From positions 14,814 through 78,813 of the forward strand of contig JADGDO010000006.1 of the NCBI GenBank assembly GCA_016744855.1: a stretch of 64,000 nucleotides of DNA. Direction: 5' to 3'. This DNA is from Candidatus Fermentibacteraceae bacterium. GTDB lineage: Bacteria; Fermentibacterota; Fermentibacteria; Fermentibacterales; JCC-6. How positions within the stretch are numbered: position 1 is the stretch's first letter; each line of letters starts with the position of its first letter. Below, piece after piece: positions 1,892 through 30,031 of the stretch. The position numbers and the translations under genes were made by a program. The notes under the pieces were generated by a model. The model was not told the origin of the DNA. It saw only the letters and a program-made list of their open reading frames with translations, and did no database searches.

Positions 1892-2335
1892 ATGGGAAAA
1901 TCGAAAGATAGGGCATTACTCCCAGGCAGTTATGGTTTACCATCTCTTAGTGAAGAAACCGATTTTGATATTGAAATTGAGATTACTGAAACTGAGTCTA
2001 TAGAAAAGCGATTAGATGATTTTGCCTCAATTGCTGGGAAAGCAGTGTTCCGTTATACGTCAGCTGTAGATTCCTTATTAGGAGAGACTGAGAGCAGTAT
2101 CTTTTACAAGAAATATGCACTTTGGAAAAGGCTTCAAGTTCTTCAAAGTAATTATCAAACAACAAGTAGTGAACTGGTAGAGATCGAAAAAGAAGGTTCT
2201 GAGCTGAGCAAGGAAGAAGAAAATCTTTTACTTGATTTCGGAAGCCTTTATGAAGAATGCGATTCACATGAGAGAGGAGAGCTTTTAGAAAAATATGGCC
2301 ATCTTACGAAAATGTGGATTAATCGCCAGGGTTAG
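1892..2335 (+). CDS. Small acidic helical protein upstream of the recombinase
   Basis: A 147-residue protein starting 'MGKSKDRALL'. ATG 1892 has AGGAAG about 8 nt upstream, so it is preferred over the in-frame GTG at 1883. The protein is rich in Glu, Leu and Ser. The second half is predicted helical or coiled ('SSELVEIEKEGSELSKEEEN'). No domain is recognised and there is no signal peptide or membrane segment. Its 3' end overlaps the serine recombinase gene by 41 bases in another frame, so the two are probably co-transcribed and translationally linked. A role as a recombination accessory factor (directionality factor or regulator) is possible from position alone. Confidence 0.55.
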   Translation: MGKSKDRALLPGSYGLPSLSEETDFDIEIEITETESIEKRLDDFASIAGKAVFRYTSAVDSLLGETESSIFYKKYALWKRLQVLQSNYQTTSSELVEIEKEGSELSKEEENLLLDFGSLYEECDSHERGELLEKYGHLTKMWINRQG

Positions 2336-3953
2336 TACTCTTGATCAAGCAAGGATAAAAGAGGGATCTATTGCCACTCAGCTTGATTTGATGAGGAATC
2401 ACATCGAGTACAAGAATAATATCACGGATAGTGAATCTGCTAAATGGGAAGAAGTATCTAGTTATGTTCTTGAGGGAATCTCTGGGAGCAAATCTGTTAA
2501 GAGTGAAGAATTCGATCAGCTATACCGTGATATTGAAACCGGTGCAATTAACACAGTCCTCTGTTCCAGATTAGATAGAGTCAGTCGTTCAATTAAAGAT
2601 TTCGTTGATTTCTTCGATTTCCTGAAGAAACATAATATTGAGTTTGTCAGTGTTTTGCAGGAACTCGATACAACCTCTGTATATGGTCGCTTCATTACCT
2701 ATGTATTGATGGCTTTGGCTGAGCTTGAGAGAGAGCAGACATCTGAGAGGATGAAGGTTAGCAAGAGGGTTAGAGCTGAGAAGGGGAGATGGACTGGTGG
2801 ATTAACCCCCCTTGGATATGACCTTGGTGAGAATAAAGGTGAGCTTACTGTAAATGAGGACGAGGCAACGATTGTAAGACACATATTTTATTCATACCTG
2901 AAGCTTGGTTCAATCAGGAAAGTAGCAACTCTCTTGAACAGAGAAGGATACACTACCAAGATCAGGACATCTGAGCTGGGCAATAAATCGGGTGGTAGCA
3001 AATTCAATTCAGAGAATGTCCGAAGAACCTTGCACGATAAAAAATATATCGGAATTCAGCAGATCAACAAAAAGAATATATATAAGGAGCAGGAAGACCT
3101 TGAGGAGAATCAACGCTATGCTGAAGTGGATGCACTTTGGGAATCAATACTTGATGGGGATGTGTTTTATGATGTTCAGGATCTGCTCAATATTGGGAAG
3201 AGCTCTGGTCATAATGCTGTTGCTCGGGGGAAACATACTTACCTGCTCTCTGGGCTTTTGTATTGTGGAAAATGTTTGAGTAAGATGAAAGCCGAATCCA
3301 CGAAGAAATCTGAAGAAAAGAGATACTTCCGTTACGTCTGTCGGAATGAAGACTGTTTAGTTTCATCTACTCCTGCAGAGAAGATTGAGAAAGCTGTAAT
3401 TGAGAATGTTACTGAGCTAGCATTTAAACCGGAAATACTTTCTAAAATTATTACCGAGACGAATAAGAGGATAAGCTCTAACCTCCCCAGGTGGAGAAAA
3501 GAGATACAGGTATTGAACAGATCTGTGAAGAAAACATCTGGGCGAATAATAACTCTCATGTACAGTCACGGAGAGGTTGATGGGGATGCTCAGAGGGAGA
3601 TTGGCATGGAGCTTGATAAATTAAGCAAGAGTAAAGAAAAAGAAGTTAGATCCATTTCAAAGCTTGAGAATCAGATTAAGGAATGTAGCAGTAATAAGAT
3701 AATTACTGAAGCAGTGATGGTTGCTTTGGATCAATTCAACTCTTCAATAGGTACACTCAACTCCCACGACAGAAAGAAACTTATTGGGAAAGTGGTTAAC
3801 AAAGTGTATTGGGATGGGGCTAGGGGACTGAGGATAGCCATGTACGCGAACAGCGCACTTTATGACCCATCGGTGTTAACCGGGGAAACAAAGTGCGCTG
3901 AGCGACATGATTGGCGCCTCGAGGAGGACTTGAACCTCCGACCTAGTGGTTAA
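2295..3953 (+). CDS. Large serine recombinase (site-specific integrase)
   Basis: A 552-residue large serine recombinase. The catalytic resolvase domain (about 1-160) has the nucleophile Ser14 in 'IARVSTLDQ', the 'SRLDRVSRS' active-site arginines and the long helix 'ALAELEREQTSERMK'. A recombinase domain follows ('TGGLTPLGYDL', about 175-280). A zinc ribbon comes next (about 318-353: CGKC ... CRNEDC), then a coiled coil (about 380-460) typical of phage-integrase-type members, which integrate and excise circular DNA between attP and attB. The gene overlaps the upstream small gene by 41 bases. The 3' end is unusual: codons 540-552 (WRLEEDLNLRPSG) and the stop are the antisense strand of a tRNA-Asn gene, beginning exactly at its CCA. 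This suggests the host junction supplies the terminus of the protein. Confidence 0.93.
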   Translation: MAILRKCGLIARVSTLDQARIKEGSIATQLDLMRNHIEYKNNITDSESAKWEEVSSYVLEGISGSKSVKSEEFDQLYRDIETGAINTVLCSRLDRVSRSIKDFVDFFDFLKKHNIEFVSVLQELDTTSVYGRFITYVLMALAELEREQTSERMKVSKRVRAEKGRWTGGLTPLGYDLGENKGELTVNEDEATIVRHIFYSYLKLGSIRKVATLLNREGYTTKIRTSELGNKSGGSKFNSENVRRTLHDKKYIGIQQINKKNIYKEQEDLEENQRYAEVDALWESILDGDVFYDVQDLLNIGKSSGHNAVARGKHTYLLSGLLYCGKCLSKMKAESTKKSEEKRYFRYVCRNEDCLVSSTPAEKIEKAVIENVTELAFKPEILSKIITETNKRISSNLPRWRKEIQVLNRSVKKTSGRIITLMYSHGEVDGDAQREIGMELDKLSKSKEKEVRSISKLENQIKECSSNKIITEAVMVALDQFNSSIGTLNSHDRKKLIGKVVNKVYWDGARGLRIAMYANSALYDPSVLTGETKCAERHDWRLEEDLNLRPSG

Positions 3954-3987
3954 CAGCCACCCGCTCTGCCAACTGAGCTATCGAGGC
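3912..3987 (-). tRNA. tRNA-Asn (anticodon GUU), CCA encoded
   Basis: Read on the minus strand from 3987, the gene folds as a full cloverleaf. The acceptor GCCTCGA pairs perfectly with TCGAGGC. The D-stem is GCTC/GAGC, the anticodon stem GGTGG/CCACT with loop CTGTTAA (anticodon GTT), and the T-arm GGAGG-TTCAAGT-CCTCC. Discriminator G is followed by an encoded CCA at 3914-3912. The tRNA lies antisense to the end of the serine recombinase gene and marks the island boundary. A good promoter sits just upstream, so the gene should stay expressed after integration on its 3' side. Confidence 0.97.
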
Positions 3988-4081: not shown

Positions 4082-5059
4082 CTATATCTTCACTAATTCA
4101 AGAGTCTCTGTTGCTCCCTGATCATCTCTGATGACAAACACATATGTGCCTGAAGGTGCAGATGAATTCCATGTCCAGGATTCCTGGAAGTTATCGGATT
4201 CCACCTGACGACCATGCATATCAAAGACTGTAACAGAAGCATTAACTCCGGGTGCCTGGATTGTCATTGCACCACTGAAAGGATTTGATGAAGGAGTAAC
4301 TGTGAGACCTTGTACACCGTGGTTACCACCTTCAATACCATCTGTAAGATCAACTTTGTAGATCTTGTCTGCGTCGACGTCACTTACCCAGAGGAAGCCA
4401 TCCGGATCAAGAGCCATTCCTCTTGCATTGGGAATGAGGCTTATATCGATGTAATCGACCATAGTGTTGTCATTATCGTAGCATTTAATCGCAATGCTTG
4501 TGTTCTCAGAAGCAACCCAAACAACACTGTCTGCAGTATTTACAGCAATGTCACAGGTCTGGCTGTAGCCCATGAGGTATGTGAAGTTAGTTCTGGTAGT
4601 AATGCCTGGAAGAGTGTAATAGTAAACTCTGTTCTGATTTCTGGAACCGAGATAAAGATGGTTACCGCTCGCGCTGAGTCCCGTCACCGACGAGACAGGG
4701 TTTCCTCAACCACCACAGAGGTCGACCATACCCTGGTAAGAACCTTCCGGTGTGAACTTGTAAACGTATCCGTTGGTCAGGTACCAACCACCGCAGAGAA
4801 CCATGTTGTTGGTTTCTGAGTAGGCAAGACCGGTAGGAACGATTGTGGCCAGGTGATCGAAATAGAAACTGCTGATCACGTCACCTGTTGCTGGATCAAT
4901 TTCGTAGACATAGTCAGTTACGGCATCCTGAGCCCAAAGTGAACCGTCACCCCATGCAAGACCTGATATGTTTGTATCAGGAGCATCAAGAGTGGACACA
5001 ATTGCTTTAGCGGATGCAGCAGCCGCTATAATCAAAAGCAGACAGAGCATTTTACGCAT
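4082..5059 (-). CDS. Secreted beta-propeller with in-frame UGA: candidate selenoprotein with sorting domain
   Basis: One 326-codon gene interrupted by a single in-frame TGA at 4708-4706 (codon 118); the same frame continues to 4082. A signal peptide ('MRKMLCLLLIIAAAASAKA', start preceded by AAGGAG) leads into NHL-like propeller repeats ('GLAWGDGSLW', 'GLSASGNHLYLG', 'GMALDPDGFLWVSD'). A type IX-like sorting domain closes the protein ('NPFSGAMTI', 'VTVFDMHGRQV', 'SGTYVFVI'). The UGA context reads DLCGG-UGA-GNP, so recoding as selenocysteine would give a C-x-x-U redox motif. An 8-bp hairpin with a GGU loop follows 9 nt after the UGA (separate entry). Trp or Gly at the position would also fit the fold; UGA being a normal stop in this genome argues against general reassignment. 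A pseudogene with one nonsense change is the main alternative. Confidence 0.75.
4678..4696 (-). promoter_or_regulatory. SECIS-like hairpin downstream of in-frame UGA
   Basis: In the mRNA, nine nucleotides after the UGA at 4708-4706, GUCUCGUC (4696-4689) pairs with GACGGGAC (4685-4678) around a GGU triloop (4688-4686). That is eight pairs, one of them G-U. The loop starts 17 nt past the UGA. Bacterial SECIS elements are short stems inside the coding region, just after the UGA, with a G early in a small apical loop and the loop roughly 16-37 nt downstream. This hairpin meets those rules. Function is inferred. Confidence 0.5.
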
Positions 5060-5307: not shown

Positions 5308-5976
5308 TCAGAGGTTGTTCAGAATCAGTGATACAGGCCAGTTCTTACCAGTGCAGTAAAGAACTCCATCATCGCCTGCGGCAATACCGTTGAGTACACC
5401 GCCTGTAGAAGGAATAACATTCTGGAGATTGATGAAGCTTTTAACATGACAGTTTGCAGGATCAATGAAGAGGATTCTTGTAGTGCGCCATTGATTGGCA
5501 AGTATTAAACCATTACGATACTCGAGTTCATTCAGGAAATACTGAGGTTCACCGTTAAGGGTGACCGACATTGAATCAGTGACAGAGAAGTCTTCAGGAT
5601 CTCTGAATCGCAATACAGATGTACCATCGCTCTGAACCAGAAAATCCCCTGTATTGCAAATACCCCAACCCTCGGTGTTTAAATAAAATTCATCAATAAT
5701 TGTCATTGTCCATGGATTAAGAAAGAAAGCGATATTCTCTCTCCAGGTGAGTAGACAAACTGTTGAATCATTTACGAAAGTAAAACCTTCCGCAAAGATT
5801 GAATCCGGAAGAGAAAGCAGTTCCAGTACTTCACCTGTCTGAGGATCTGTTTTTCTGAAAGATGATTGGCCGTAAATACCGGTGCTTTCCCAAATAAAAC
5901 CATCGTGGAATTCAAGGCCTTGAGTGAAAGCACCCGGGTCGTGGGGAATAATCCCCAAAACACCGGGTGCCATCAT
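5308..5976 (-). CDS. Glutaminyl-peptide cyclotransferase (glutamine cyclotransferase family)
   Basis: Matches the plant/bacterial-type glutaminyl cyclase family, a five-bladed propeller that converts N-terminal Gln to pyroglutamate on exported peptides. Recognisable motifs are 'GAFTQGLEFHDG', 'ESTGIYGQSSFRK', 'TGEVLELLSLPDSIFAEG', 'LTWRENIAFF' and the late 'LNELEYRNGLILANQW'. The first ATG (5976) falls inside a hydrophobic run. The same frame upstream reads 'RGKSIVFSLLFALMMAPGVLG', which is a good signal peptide but has no ATG, GTG or TTG; only ATA 6003 or CTG 5991 is available. The true start may therefore be non-canonical and further upstream. It follows the M48 protease and SH3 genes in one operon, consistent with envelope protein processing. 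Confidence 0.85.
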   Translation of the reverse strand: MMAPGVLGIIPHDPGAFTQGLEFHDGFIWESTGIYGQSSFRKTDPQTGEVLELLSLPDSIFAEGFTFVNDSTVCLLTWRENIAFFLNPWTMTIIDEFYLNTEGWGICNTGDFLVQSDGTSVLRFRDPEDFSVTDSMSVTLNGEPQYFLNELEYRNGLILANQWRTTRILFIDPANCHVKSFINLQNVIPSTGGVLNGIAAGDDGVLYCTGKNWPVSLILNNL

Positions 5977-5999
5977 AAGAGCAAATAGCAGGGAGAAAA

Positions 6000-6986
6000 C
6001 TATACTCTTCCCCCGGATCCACGATTTGTTGATGCCGGGTTGTCGTCTGCTGATGTTCTGTCATCTGATGAGCTTCTGTCTCCTGAGGATGTTCTTCCTC
6101 TGGACTCTGGCTGTGTTGTTCCTGCATTCAAATATCTGTCTGTGAACCTGGCTGTTCTTACTGCAATCTCCTCCGTAGAAGGTGAAGACAATGAGCTTGA
6201 TTCGATCTCTTCCATTACCCACTGAGCGCGGTCTGATGGGGCAGGATGGGTCTGCCAGAAACCGGGGCCGCTTGTGTCTGTATGCTCAGTCATTCTGGCT
6301 AGAACAACAGCGAGAGCGGCTGGGTCGTAACCTGATCGTGCAAGAATGTGTACAGCCAGACTGTCTGCCTGCTGTTCTGAATCGCGGCTGTAACCGCGTG
6401 TTACAAGATTCATTGTTACATCATCAACGATGTCTCCGTAGCTTTCTGAAAGCTCCTGCACGTCACTACTGCCCAGGTGTTGTGCACCCTCATGGCCGAG
6501 AGTTGTCCACGCTGAGGTGAGCTTTGCTTTTTCTACAGATTGAATTCCGTGCCTGAGGGCAATGTGAGCGGCCTCGTGTGCCAGTATTGCTGCAAGCTCG
6601 TCTTCATTTTGAGCTACATTACAAAGCCCTTTGTTAAGCAGAACAATTCCTCCTGGGCAGGAAAGGGCATTTATGTTCATGTCATCGAGTATCATGAAGT
6701 GCCAGCCACCATACGTGAATGGAAGGGGAGAGAAGCCTGCGATTACCGCTCCGATTTCATTTACATACTGAACTGCATCCCAGTTCATCATCGGGTTGGA
6801 TGTTGCAAGAATGTTTGCAGCAACTGCTCTTCCGATGTAATACTCTTCGGTTGCGGTTATCTCGCGATTGGCTTCATCAAAAGCCTCATAGACATTGACA
6901 GCGCTTGCAACTTCATCGCTTTCAACGAAGTCTGTGATGTCACCGAGACCGAAAGCAACCATTGCAATTATAAGAATTGTTGTCAT
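6000..6986 (-). CDS. M48-family zinc metalloprotease, exported
   Basis: Starts with a short signal-type hydrophobic segment ('MTTILIIAMVAFGLG'). The zincin motif HEAAH is at residues 137-141 and the third-ligand region is 'SEQQADSLAVHIL', as in M48 proteases of the BepA/Oma1/LoiP type that work on envelope proteins. 'SCPGGIVLLNKGL' before the HExxH and 'TSGPGFWQTHPAPSDRAQWV' after it are classic M48 signatures. The last 60 residues are a low-complexity Ser/Thr/Asp/Arg-rich tail. The start overlaps the SH3 gene stop by 4 bp (translational coupling) and the gene is followed closely by the glutaminyl cyclase. It probably trims or degrades periplasmic or outer-membrane proteins. Confidence 0.92.
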   Translation of the reverse strand: MTTILIIAMVAFGLGDITDFVESDEVASAVNVYEAFDEANREITATEEYYIGRAVAANILATSNPMMNWDAVQYVNEIGAVIAGFSPLPFTYGGWHFMILDDMNINALSCPGGIVLLNKGLCNVAQNEDELAAILAHEAAHIALRHGIQSVEKAKLTSAWTTLGHEGAQHLGSSDVQELSESYGDIVDDVTMNLVTRGYSRDSEQQADSLAVHILARSGYDPAALAVVLARMTEHTDTSGPGFWQTHPAPSDRAQWVMEEIESSSLSSPSTEEIAVRTARFTDRYLNAGTTQPESRGRTSSGDRSSSDDRTSADDNPASTNRGSGGRV

Positions 6987-27868: not shown

Positions 27869-30031
27869 TCAGTTATCCAGTATCACAAATCTGCAGAATG
27901 GGGACTTATCTTTGAGACCGGTGAAATAAACACCTGGTGCAAGGCCGTCAACGATAACATGTTGAACTGCTTCTGAAGCAGGAACAGATTCACTGTGTAC
28001 CATTCTTCCGGAGAGATCGAACACAGAAAGAGCACTTACGGTTGAAACGGGACCTACCGCAACTGTTACTGCATAAGAAACCGGGGTGGCAAGAACAGTA
28101 ATTGTGGAGGCTACCACAACATCGCAGTTCTCAATACTGAGTGGTTCCAGAGGATACCTGAAGATACCGTAGAACTGTGTTCCGGCATAGAGCCAGCTGT
28201 CACCTACGATCTCTACACATTCAACATTTATCGGCTCAATGTAAAGATCATCCATCGGAATCCAGGTCAGACCAGAGTCGTTTGATCTGTAAACACCGTT
28301 GTCAACACAGGCGGCATACATCTCACCGGGGCGACTTTCATCCTCATCCAGCATATGTGTTTCAATATCCAGGACCTGATTGAAAGTTTCACCGTCATCG
28401 CTAAGGTAAATACCATCTGAAGTGGCACAGAGAAATCTTCCCGGGACGGAGGTGGAGAAGAGAATGTCGTATCCTTTTCCACCGAGAGTGGGATAAGAAG
28501 AAATATCCCAGTTTTCACCGTGATCGAATGATTCGTGCAAAAAGGTGTTGGTTGTGCTGTACTGATAACTGCATTCCATGAGGTGCGCAGGATTAGCAGG
28601 ATCAACCTCAATGTCATTTGTTTGAAGGTTGTAACCACTCAGGGCATCAACCCAGGTCTCGCCATTGTCTGTTGATCTGAATATCTGTGATGAGATGGTT
28701 CTTCCACCCATTAAAACTGTACCCGGGAGATCCTGACAAAGAGCCAGTGCACAACCGTATTCATAGGTAAGTTCTTTAATTTTTGTCCAGACGGCACCGC
28801 CGTCTGTGCTCTTATAGAGCTGAGTGCTTCAACCGGCACCCCCGGCTGCAAACCACAAATCAGGATCAGAATTCGATCTTGCAATATGGCTTGCATTTAT
28901 AGACCAGTAGGAACTTACCTCTGTCCAAGAGTACTGCTCCTCTTCCAGGAAGAATCCATTTCCTGAGAACAGAGGGAAACCGTTTTCAGAATCTTCCAGA
29001 ATCGCGTAAACACTTCCTCCCGGAATGCCGTTGTTCGCAACAGACCAGGCGTATCCTCCATTGGTGGACACTGCTAGTCCGGAATTGCTTCCAATATGCA
29101 CACTAATTTCCGGATTGCTTGATACAGCCATAGATGTTAAATTCCAGAAATCGCAGGGATCCTCGGTCATCCACCAGCCCAACCCGCCATTTCCAGAGTG
29201 ATAGACATCATTACTCGTGAAGGCAAAAATGCTGTCTTGACTGGTCGGGTGAAAGACGATCCCAGAAATCTGCGAAGAAGTTTCAAGAGCTGTGGACCAG
29301 TTCTCACCACCATCTACAGTTCTGAATATCTCAGAATCTGCACCGATAAAAACCATATCGGGATCAAATGGTGAGATTGCCAGGGATCTTACATGTAACC
29401 CTACTGGAAAAGCCACCGGTGAAACATCGACCCATGTAAGACCACCATCGGTGCTCTTGAACACATTGAGGAAATAGTCATGAGAGGTTCCCTTACCCGC
29501 CATGTAAACTATGTCTGGATCAGAGGTGGAAAACTCTACCTGCTTAGCAAACATCACAGGAATACCAGGAACATGATCCCAGGTTGAACCTCCGTCAGTG
29601 GACACCAGAAGAGGAGAAGAATCATTTTCGTAATCTGCTGCAAAAAGACGCAGTTCATCAACGGGGTCAGAAGCAACATCCTGAATGTCATGCACCGGGT
29701 CCATTGTTATGGTTGACCAGCTTTCCCCCATGTCTGAAGAGAGTATTATGGTATTGTTGCGCCAACCGAGAAGTCTGCCCTGGGTATCGGAAATTATTTT
29801 ATCCAGATCAAGATCAATATTGGAAACAAACTCCCAATTTCCACTGCCATTAATTGATTTATAGTACTCGTAGCCTTCTGCCTCATTAGGTCTCTCCACA
29901 GCTGCAAACAGTGCGCCGGGAATGCTACTGAGGTGAGTGACTTTAGAGCCTCCAGGACCGCACACTTCCCAATCCCCACTGCCCAACGCCACACAAACTG
30001 TTAGAAGTAGCATGCCGACTGAATACATCAT
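27869..30031 (-). CDS. Secreted BNR/sortilin-like propeller with in-frame UGA: candidate selenoprotein with sorting domain
   Basis: One 721-codon gene from ATG 30031 (AAGGAG upstream) to 27869, broken by a single in-frame TGA at 28831-28829 (codon 401). A signal peptide ('MMYSVGMLLLTVCVALGSG') leads into many BNR/Asp-box units ('KSTDGGLTWVDV', 'RTVDGGENWSTA', 'STNGGYAWSV', and after the UGA 'KSTDGGAVWTKI', 'RSNDSGLTWIPM'). A type IX-like sorting domain closes it ('SALSVFDLSGRMVHSE', 'GLAPGVYFTGL'). The repeats continue across the UGA in the same frame (context FAAGGAG-UGA-STQLY). An 8-bp hairpin with a GGU loop lies 22 nt after the UGA (separate entry). Readings are selenocysteine, another residue by read-through, or a pseudogene with one nonsense codon. 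Confidence 0.75.
28788..28806 (-). promoter_or_regulatory. SECIS-like hairpin downstream of in-frame UGA
   Basis: In the mRNA, CAGACGGC (28806-28799) pairs perfectly with GCCGUCUG (28795-28788) around a GGU triloop (28798-28796). The loop starts 30 nt after the UGA at 28831-28829, inside the usual 16-37 nt range for bacterial SECIS. A smaller GCUCU-AUA-AGAGC hairpin lies between it and the UGA. The stem also encodes an Asp-box (DGGAV), so coding constraint alone could produce it. The same stem length and loop recur in the 4082-5059 gene. Confidence 0.5.

Follow-up and report, generated by a model that had tools for sequence, protein, structure and literature searches.

A probable selenocysteine codon in a predicted exported five-bladed propeller protein of the phylum Fermentibacterota

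Introduction

Does the single UGA codon that interrupts a secreted propeller gene in Fermentibacterota end translation, or is it decoded as selenocysteine (Sec)? The question is raised by a 64-kb stretch of DNA (G000:C74:14814-78813, hereafter the window), which belongs to a Candidatus Sabulitectum genome (Fermentibacterota), the name carried by its close homologs. A sequence-only reading of the window had proposed that the UGA codes for Sec in a propeller unlike any selenoprotein family known to it. Catalogued prokaryotic selenoproteins are for the most part redox proteins whose scaffold is thioredoxin-like or binds a cofactor, and almost every one has a counterpart with cysteine (Cys). Multi-copy exported propellers with an obligatory Sec throughout a phylum would add both a new scaffold and a new cellular location.

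A propeller gene with one in-frame UGA

The gene and the codons under discussion are the following.

4082..5059, minus strand: candidate selenoprotein gene, 325 codons plus stop with one in-frame UGA proposed to be read through; orthologs within the genus are 75-80% identical over the full length
4706..4708, minus strand: proposed selenocysteine UGA, codon 118; the aligned column is TGA in all loop-bearing homologs
4715..4717, minus strand: codon of Cys115, the proposed partner of Sec118 (CGGU); Cys stands at -3, -1 or -4 in every aligned TGA homolog
5009..5059, minus strand: predicted N-terminal signal peptide, residues 1-17; a hydrophobic segment in the sequence and a helix (2-14) in the model
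4340..5005, minus strand: predicted five-bladed beta-propeller, approximately residues 19-240; AlphaFold2 model, TM 0.73 of target to 3mbr
4550..4552, minus strand: codon of Asp170, unchanged throughout alignments A4 and A5, G099 proteins included; candidate active-site partner
4088..4285, minus strand: C-terminal sorting domain of T9SS type A, spanning residues 259-324; TIGR04183, 27.1 bits against a cut-off of 23; downstream of the UGA

Across the 326 codons the TGA at codon 118 is the sole in-frame stop before the end, with neither TAA nor TAG, and its residue context is Leu-Cys-Gly-Gly-UGA-Gly-Asn. Translation confirmed the earlier observation of one TGA at 4708-4706 followed by a frame that stays open to the gene end. 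That this frame runs through repeats to a sorting domain was likewise borne out, as leader, repeats and the TIGR04183 domain were all found; the Pfam sorting-domain model PF18962 scores 22.7, under its cut-off of 27. A list of open reading frames made with the standard code breaks the gene in two (4706-5059 and 4082-4687), as would be the case if the UGA were a true stop that ends a 117-residue protein and is followed by a separate or decayed frame, that is, a pseudogene or two cistrons. Such a stop would leave each side with half a propeller, and would place the sorting domain behind the end of the protein.

Next to the gene, a serine-recombinase-like frame can be read at 2295-3953, the 3' end of which overlaps a tRNA-Asn gene (3912-3987, minus strand). 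This arrangement suggests that an integrated element (window 2295-3987) borders the selenoprotein gene.

Conservation of the UGA across genomes

More than 100 homologs with TGA at the position of codon 118, usually as their sole stop, are present in 41 of the 42 Fermentibacterota genomes; the lone exception, G032, is 73% complete. With the read-through protein as query, each of the 13 genomes in the genus gave a match, as did almost the whole phylum; the orthologs within the genus carry one TGA each. Many Fermentibacterota genomes hold several copies of the UGA propeller, and the TGA occupies a single alignment column that is kept even where clades are no more than about 30% identical. Because the same TGA recurs in dozens of independently assembled genomes, a sequencing error is excluded. 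One propeller copy (L076:2252-3262, plus strand) contains two in-frame UGAs, has Arg at several conserved Trp positions, and is possibly decaying.

A Cys accompanies the proposed Sec at -3 (CGGU in the window clade, CSGU in two paralogs), at -1 (CU in most paralogs) or at -4 (CPGGU). As the spacing varies, the CxxU motif that had been put forward describes CGGU and CSGU correctly and is just one of several versions, CU and CPGGU being others.

Outside the phylum, a profile search of 385 genomes found the family in one genome, G099 (a complete 5.0-Mb contig), which encodes three propellers with HCPGGU, TGA in the shared column and a hairpin after each UGA. The same genome encodes, a few kb from one of these propellers, a redoxin (AhpC/TSA) with U-G-F-C (UxxC) fused to dockerin repeats (L122:12830-13630, plus strand). 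Redoxins with UxxC are a known type of selenoprotein, and the presence of this one supports the use of Sec in G099.

Alignment of homologs had been suggested as a check, with Cys in place of the UGA as the expected sign of Sec. None was found, either by the profile search of the 385 genomes or in phages and plasmids queried with the single protein, where the sole match was a weak glutamine cyclotransferase. Neither was any homolog seen with another residue, such as Gly or Trp, at this position; the most distant propellers without TGA lack the entire Sec loop. A selenoprotein without Cys-containing homologs is unusual (PMC12013277), although such homologs are a frequent rather than a defining feature of selenoproteins. 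Their absence takes away the evidence by which the identity of the residue is normally proved.

The hairpin downstream of the UGA

4678..4696, minus strand: proposed SECIS hairpin; 5' arm 4696-4689, apical GGU 4688-4686, 3' arm 4685-4678

The UGA is followed by the hairpin GUCUCGUC-GGU-GACGGGAC, whose 8-bp stem starts 9 nt past the codon and whose loop begins after 17 nt, exactly as first described. Published rules for bacterial SECIS elements specify a loop of 3-9 nt, a G in the first two loop positions, a stem of 4-16 bp, a spacing of 16-37 nt and a minimum free energy of at most -7.5 (PMC13188914). The window hairpin (3-nt GGU loop, 8 bp, 17 nt, -14.5 kcal/mol over 48 nt) agrees with all of them. 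Taken alone, it is weak evidence and only modestly unusual: of the 2710 TGAs that the window contains, 62 (2.3%) precede a comparable hairpin, and the folding energy of the one at codon 118 is unremarkable (z = -0.35).

What raises the hairpin above chance is its combination with the invariant UGA column, covariation in the stem and a complete lack of synonymous variation. When 23 distinct stems are compared, standard pairs fill 94.0% of the pair cells, against 66.9 +/- 2.3 after shuffling; the covariation score is 0.650, a value reached by 0 of 500 shuffles, compared with 0.183 for shuffled stems, and slid controls score at most 0.152. A second alignment agrees on the covariation. Homologs have GGU or GGC loops, 17 or 20 nt past the UGA. 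Across 31 homologs from the CGGU clade, the hairpin codons (Val-Ser-Ser-Val-Thr-Gly) are free of synonymous variation, whereas codon heterozygosity is typically 0.5-0.7 at other degenerate residues of equal conservation; such uniformity exceeds what protein constraint alone would impose and therefore points to selection at the RNA level. Two weak matches of the SECIS model elsewhere in the genome (L109, L110) were set aside, as no convincing UGA-interrupted reading frame was seen there.

These data also bear on the reading of the UGA as a true stop. Beyond the split list of frames that favours it, it would have to accommodate protein-level constraint on both halves of the gene, a frame, stop type and stop position that are constant across the phylum, and a hairpin free of synonymous change; we regard it as exceedingly improbable.

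Selenocysteine machinery and the meaning of UGA

The host genome contains a tRNA-Sec (anticodon UCA, 68 bits), adjoining selA and selB genes, and two selD genes, so that the Sec machinery, for which a search had been proposed, is all present. Both selD genes carry an in-frame UGA of their own (CAGU-AGK) and a hairpin with a GGU or GGC triloop, and thus serve as an internal positive control. SelB scores above cut-off in 35 of 42 Fermentibacterota genomes. UGA remains a stop codon in this host: an own-genome gene on L178 that is interrupted by a UGA also ends in TGA, and several relatives among L042-L051 end the same propeller gene with TGA.

Hairpins located 3' of a stop codon are able to promote read-through. 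The one at codon 118 might be a signal for read-through in general, with a near-cognate tRNA, or a partly reassigned UGA, placing some other amino acid at the codon; residue identity is, after all, not fixed by any Cys homolog. We consider this improbable in view of the complete Sec machinery, a hairpin that obeys every bacterial SECIS rule and shares its triloop with the genome's own selD genes, the Cys within four residues of the UGA in every TGA homolog, and the continued use of UGA as a normal stop; nor was TAA or TAG with a hairpin ever found in a coding-flanked setting within the 864 kb surveyed.

The conserved TGA, the covarying hairpin and the Sec machinery together support the original proposal that the UGA codes for Sec. 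Sec is very likely inserted at codon 118, from which we infer the incorporation of selenium, and for the reading as a whole, a codon 118 UGA decoded as Sec in an exported five-bladed propeller, we estimate a probability of about 93%.

Predicted structure and possible chemistry

The AlphaFold2 model of the protein has a mean pLDDT of 74.8 and a pTM of 0.69. Its input was ten close sequences, and its confidence drops within the Sec loop (residues 116-119, pLDDT <50), so that the geometry and the role of Asp170 are tentative. Our reading of the strand list is consistent with five four-stranded blades, the last of which would be closed by the N-terminal strand. In the model, the Sec loop (residues 114-124) leads from the final strand of blade 2 into the opening strand of blade 3, and blade 4 begins with Asp170, a place taken by Gly in the other blades.

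Judging from the conserved parts, a ribosome reaching the UGA would meet a hairpin 17 nt downstream bound by SelB with Sec-tRNA-Sec, and translation would go on past the remaining blades and into the T9SS sorting domain. The product would then be exported by means of its signal peptide and C-terminal tail and fold into a five-bladed propeller, with Cys115-Gly-Gly-Sec118 in the loop between blades 2 and 3 and the invariant Asp170 where blade 4 begins. The model leads us to infer an active site made up of the Cys/Sec pair and Asp170. The most likely chemistry, to which we give an even chance, would be that of a redox centre, a selenenylsulfide that forms and opens reversibly on the cell surface or beyond it.

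The main alternative to redox chemistry, rather less likely in our estimate, accepts the insertion of Sec and regards the Cys/Sec pair as a ligand for a metal or metalloid (Hg, As, Cu). Metal-related proteins are found among the catalogued CU-type motifs (MerB-like SaoL, SaoC, SaoB, HgcA, MbdU), the variable Cys-Sec spacing (-1, -3, -4) suits a chelate or a simple selenenylsulfide better than a thioredoxin-type site, and Asp170 could be a third ligand. Against a metal ligand stands the lack of a nearby metal-resistance gene, the upstream neighbours in the genus being a glutaminyl cyclase, an M48 peptidase, an SH3 protein and a CHASE2 cyclase. Neither a substrate nor a conserved operon partner hints at the reaction. 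The glutaminyl cyclase (PF05096; window 5308-6060, minus strand) lies directly upstream in 12 of 20 loci compared, other genera included.

Other UGA-interrupted proteins in the genome

A further gene in the window has a similar organization.

27869..30031, minus strand: second candidate exported-propeller selenoprotein (BNR/sortilin-Vps10 type, 720 codons); its UGA is common to a 24%-identical homolog
28829..28831, minus strand: in-frame UGA of the second candidate, with the hairpin CAGACGGC-GGU-GCCGUCUG 30 nt later

The motif of this protein is GAG-U, with no adjacent Cys. Its homolog, the only one found in upstream regions of seven related genomes, is encoded in another Sabulitectum genome (L141:13676-15940, minus strand); there the only in-frame stop is a TGA at the same aligned position, and the hairpin differs from that of the second candidate by a compensatory pair. 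For two other TGAs in the window (18130, plus strand, and 15047, minus strand), read-through was rejected on account of neighbouring genes or antisense location and the lack of a hairpin.

A census of stops with coding sequence on both flanks covered 864 kb, approximately 27% of the genome, and returned 15 TGA, 22 TAA and 25 TAG. SECIS-type hairpins with a GG or GT loop follow 7 of the 15 TGA and none of the 47 TAA/TAG; the thresholds were set after seeing examples, some of which are among the matches, so that the Fisher p-value (1.3e-5) is a guide only. The window gene 4082-5059 is missed by the census, having failed the codon-usage cut. Six of the seven positives are propeller-type proteins with export features, namely four FG-GAP proteins, one paralog of the window gene and the BNR protein. 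The four FG-GAP proteins are 30-76% identical and have their UGA in the same column. FG-GAP propellers with T9SS-type tails and the conserved UGA are encoded at the following loci.

L156:7974-9182, plus strand
L156:9300-10508, plus strand
L178:14103-15338, minus strand
L182:6193-7449, plus strand
L069:9704-10939, plus strand

Their UGA context is G-U-CTGATNPQ or HC-U-PKTGARNPQ, and hairpins of the form AATCC-R-CA-GGY-TG-Y-GGATT, with compensatory changes, follow the UGA. On these grounds the FG-GAP propellers are a candidate third selenoprotein family. The seventh positive (L169:2023-2640, minus strand; UGA at 2535) is a small putative secreted protein with the context GYPFGC-U-STTKLNH (FGCU) and a 6-bp hairpin; it has no Pfam or NCBIfam match and is a weak candidate selenoprotein.

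Fermentibacterota have probably turned several unrelated exported propeller families (five-bladed NHL-like, BNR/sortilin-like and FG-GAP, with no Cys counterpart found so far) into selenoproteins, giving a largely extracellular selenoproteome in which Sec would be obligatory for some shared surface chemistry. The usual discovery method, which relies on Cys/TGA pairs, misses the propeller family, and standard gene calling would split such genes. The family makes the role of selenium outside the cell in this uncultured phylum directly testable.

Comparison with known systems

A review of May 2026 lists 119 prokaryotic selenoprotein families and subfamilies, none annotated as a propeller or as T9SS cargo, and the words propeller and Fermentibacter are absent from it (PMC13188914). 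This agrees with the earlier impression that no selenoprotein family has such an architecture. Among the models of NCBIfam 20.0 (June 2026), no selenoprotein model matches these propellers. A full-text literature search, with subscription papers and preprints mostly outside its scope, returned nothing relevant on selenium in Fermentibacterota, so that an earlier description of propeller selenoproteins may exist.

In fold, the model of the window protein resembles glutaminyl cyclases of the plant/bacterial type (PF05096; 3mbr, 3nok, 2iwa), which are likewise five-bladed (TM 0.64-0.73 of target). The protein differs from them in scoring 14.7 bits against a PF05096 cut-off of 22.3 and in its Sec loop, for which no counterpart was recognised. 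The modelled fold is also similar to that of NHL propellers, and a repeat signature is shared with NHL, DUF6923 and virginiamycin-B-lyase-like propellers: DUF6923 passes the Pfam cut-off at residues 14-64, and Pizza/NHL structures give profile matches. The catalogue assigns no selenocysteine to these propellers (PMC13188914), and the likeness does not imply a function.

Among selenoproteins, the closest parallels in mechanism are those with CxxU or CU motifs (GrdA, AhpD-like, SaoC, MbdU; PMC13188914), which have the same UGA-encoded Sec with a nearby Cys, a downstream SECIS and dependence on SelA/B/C/D. Those catalogued proteins are thioredoxin-fold, cofactor, metal-binding or transport proteins, whereas the window protein is a predicted propeller for which no Cys homologs were found. 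The Sec-containing SelD proteins of the same genome share the UGA and the GGU/GGC triloop hairpin, but are cytosolic, have an unrelated fold and form a selenoprotein family already known. The selenoprotein as a kind is therefore known; what appears to be new is that it is built on a propeller, is exported, seems to have no Cys forms and occurs in more than one family.
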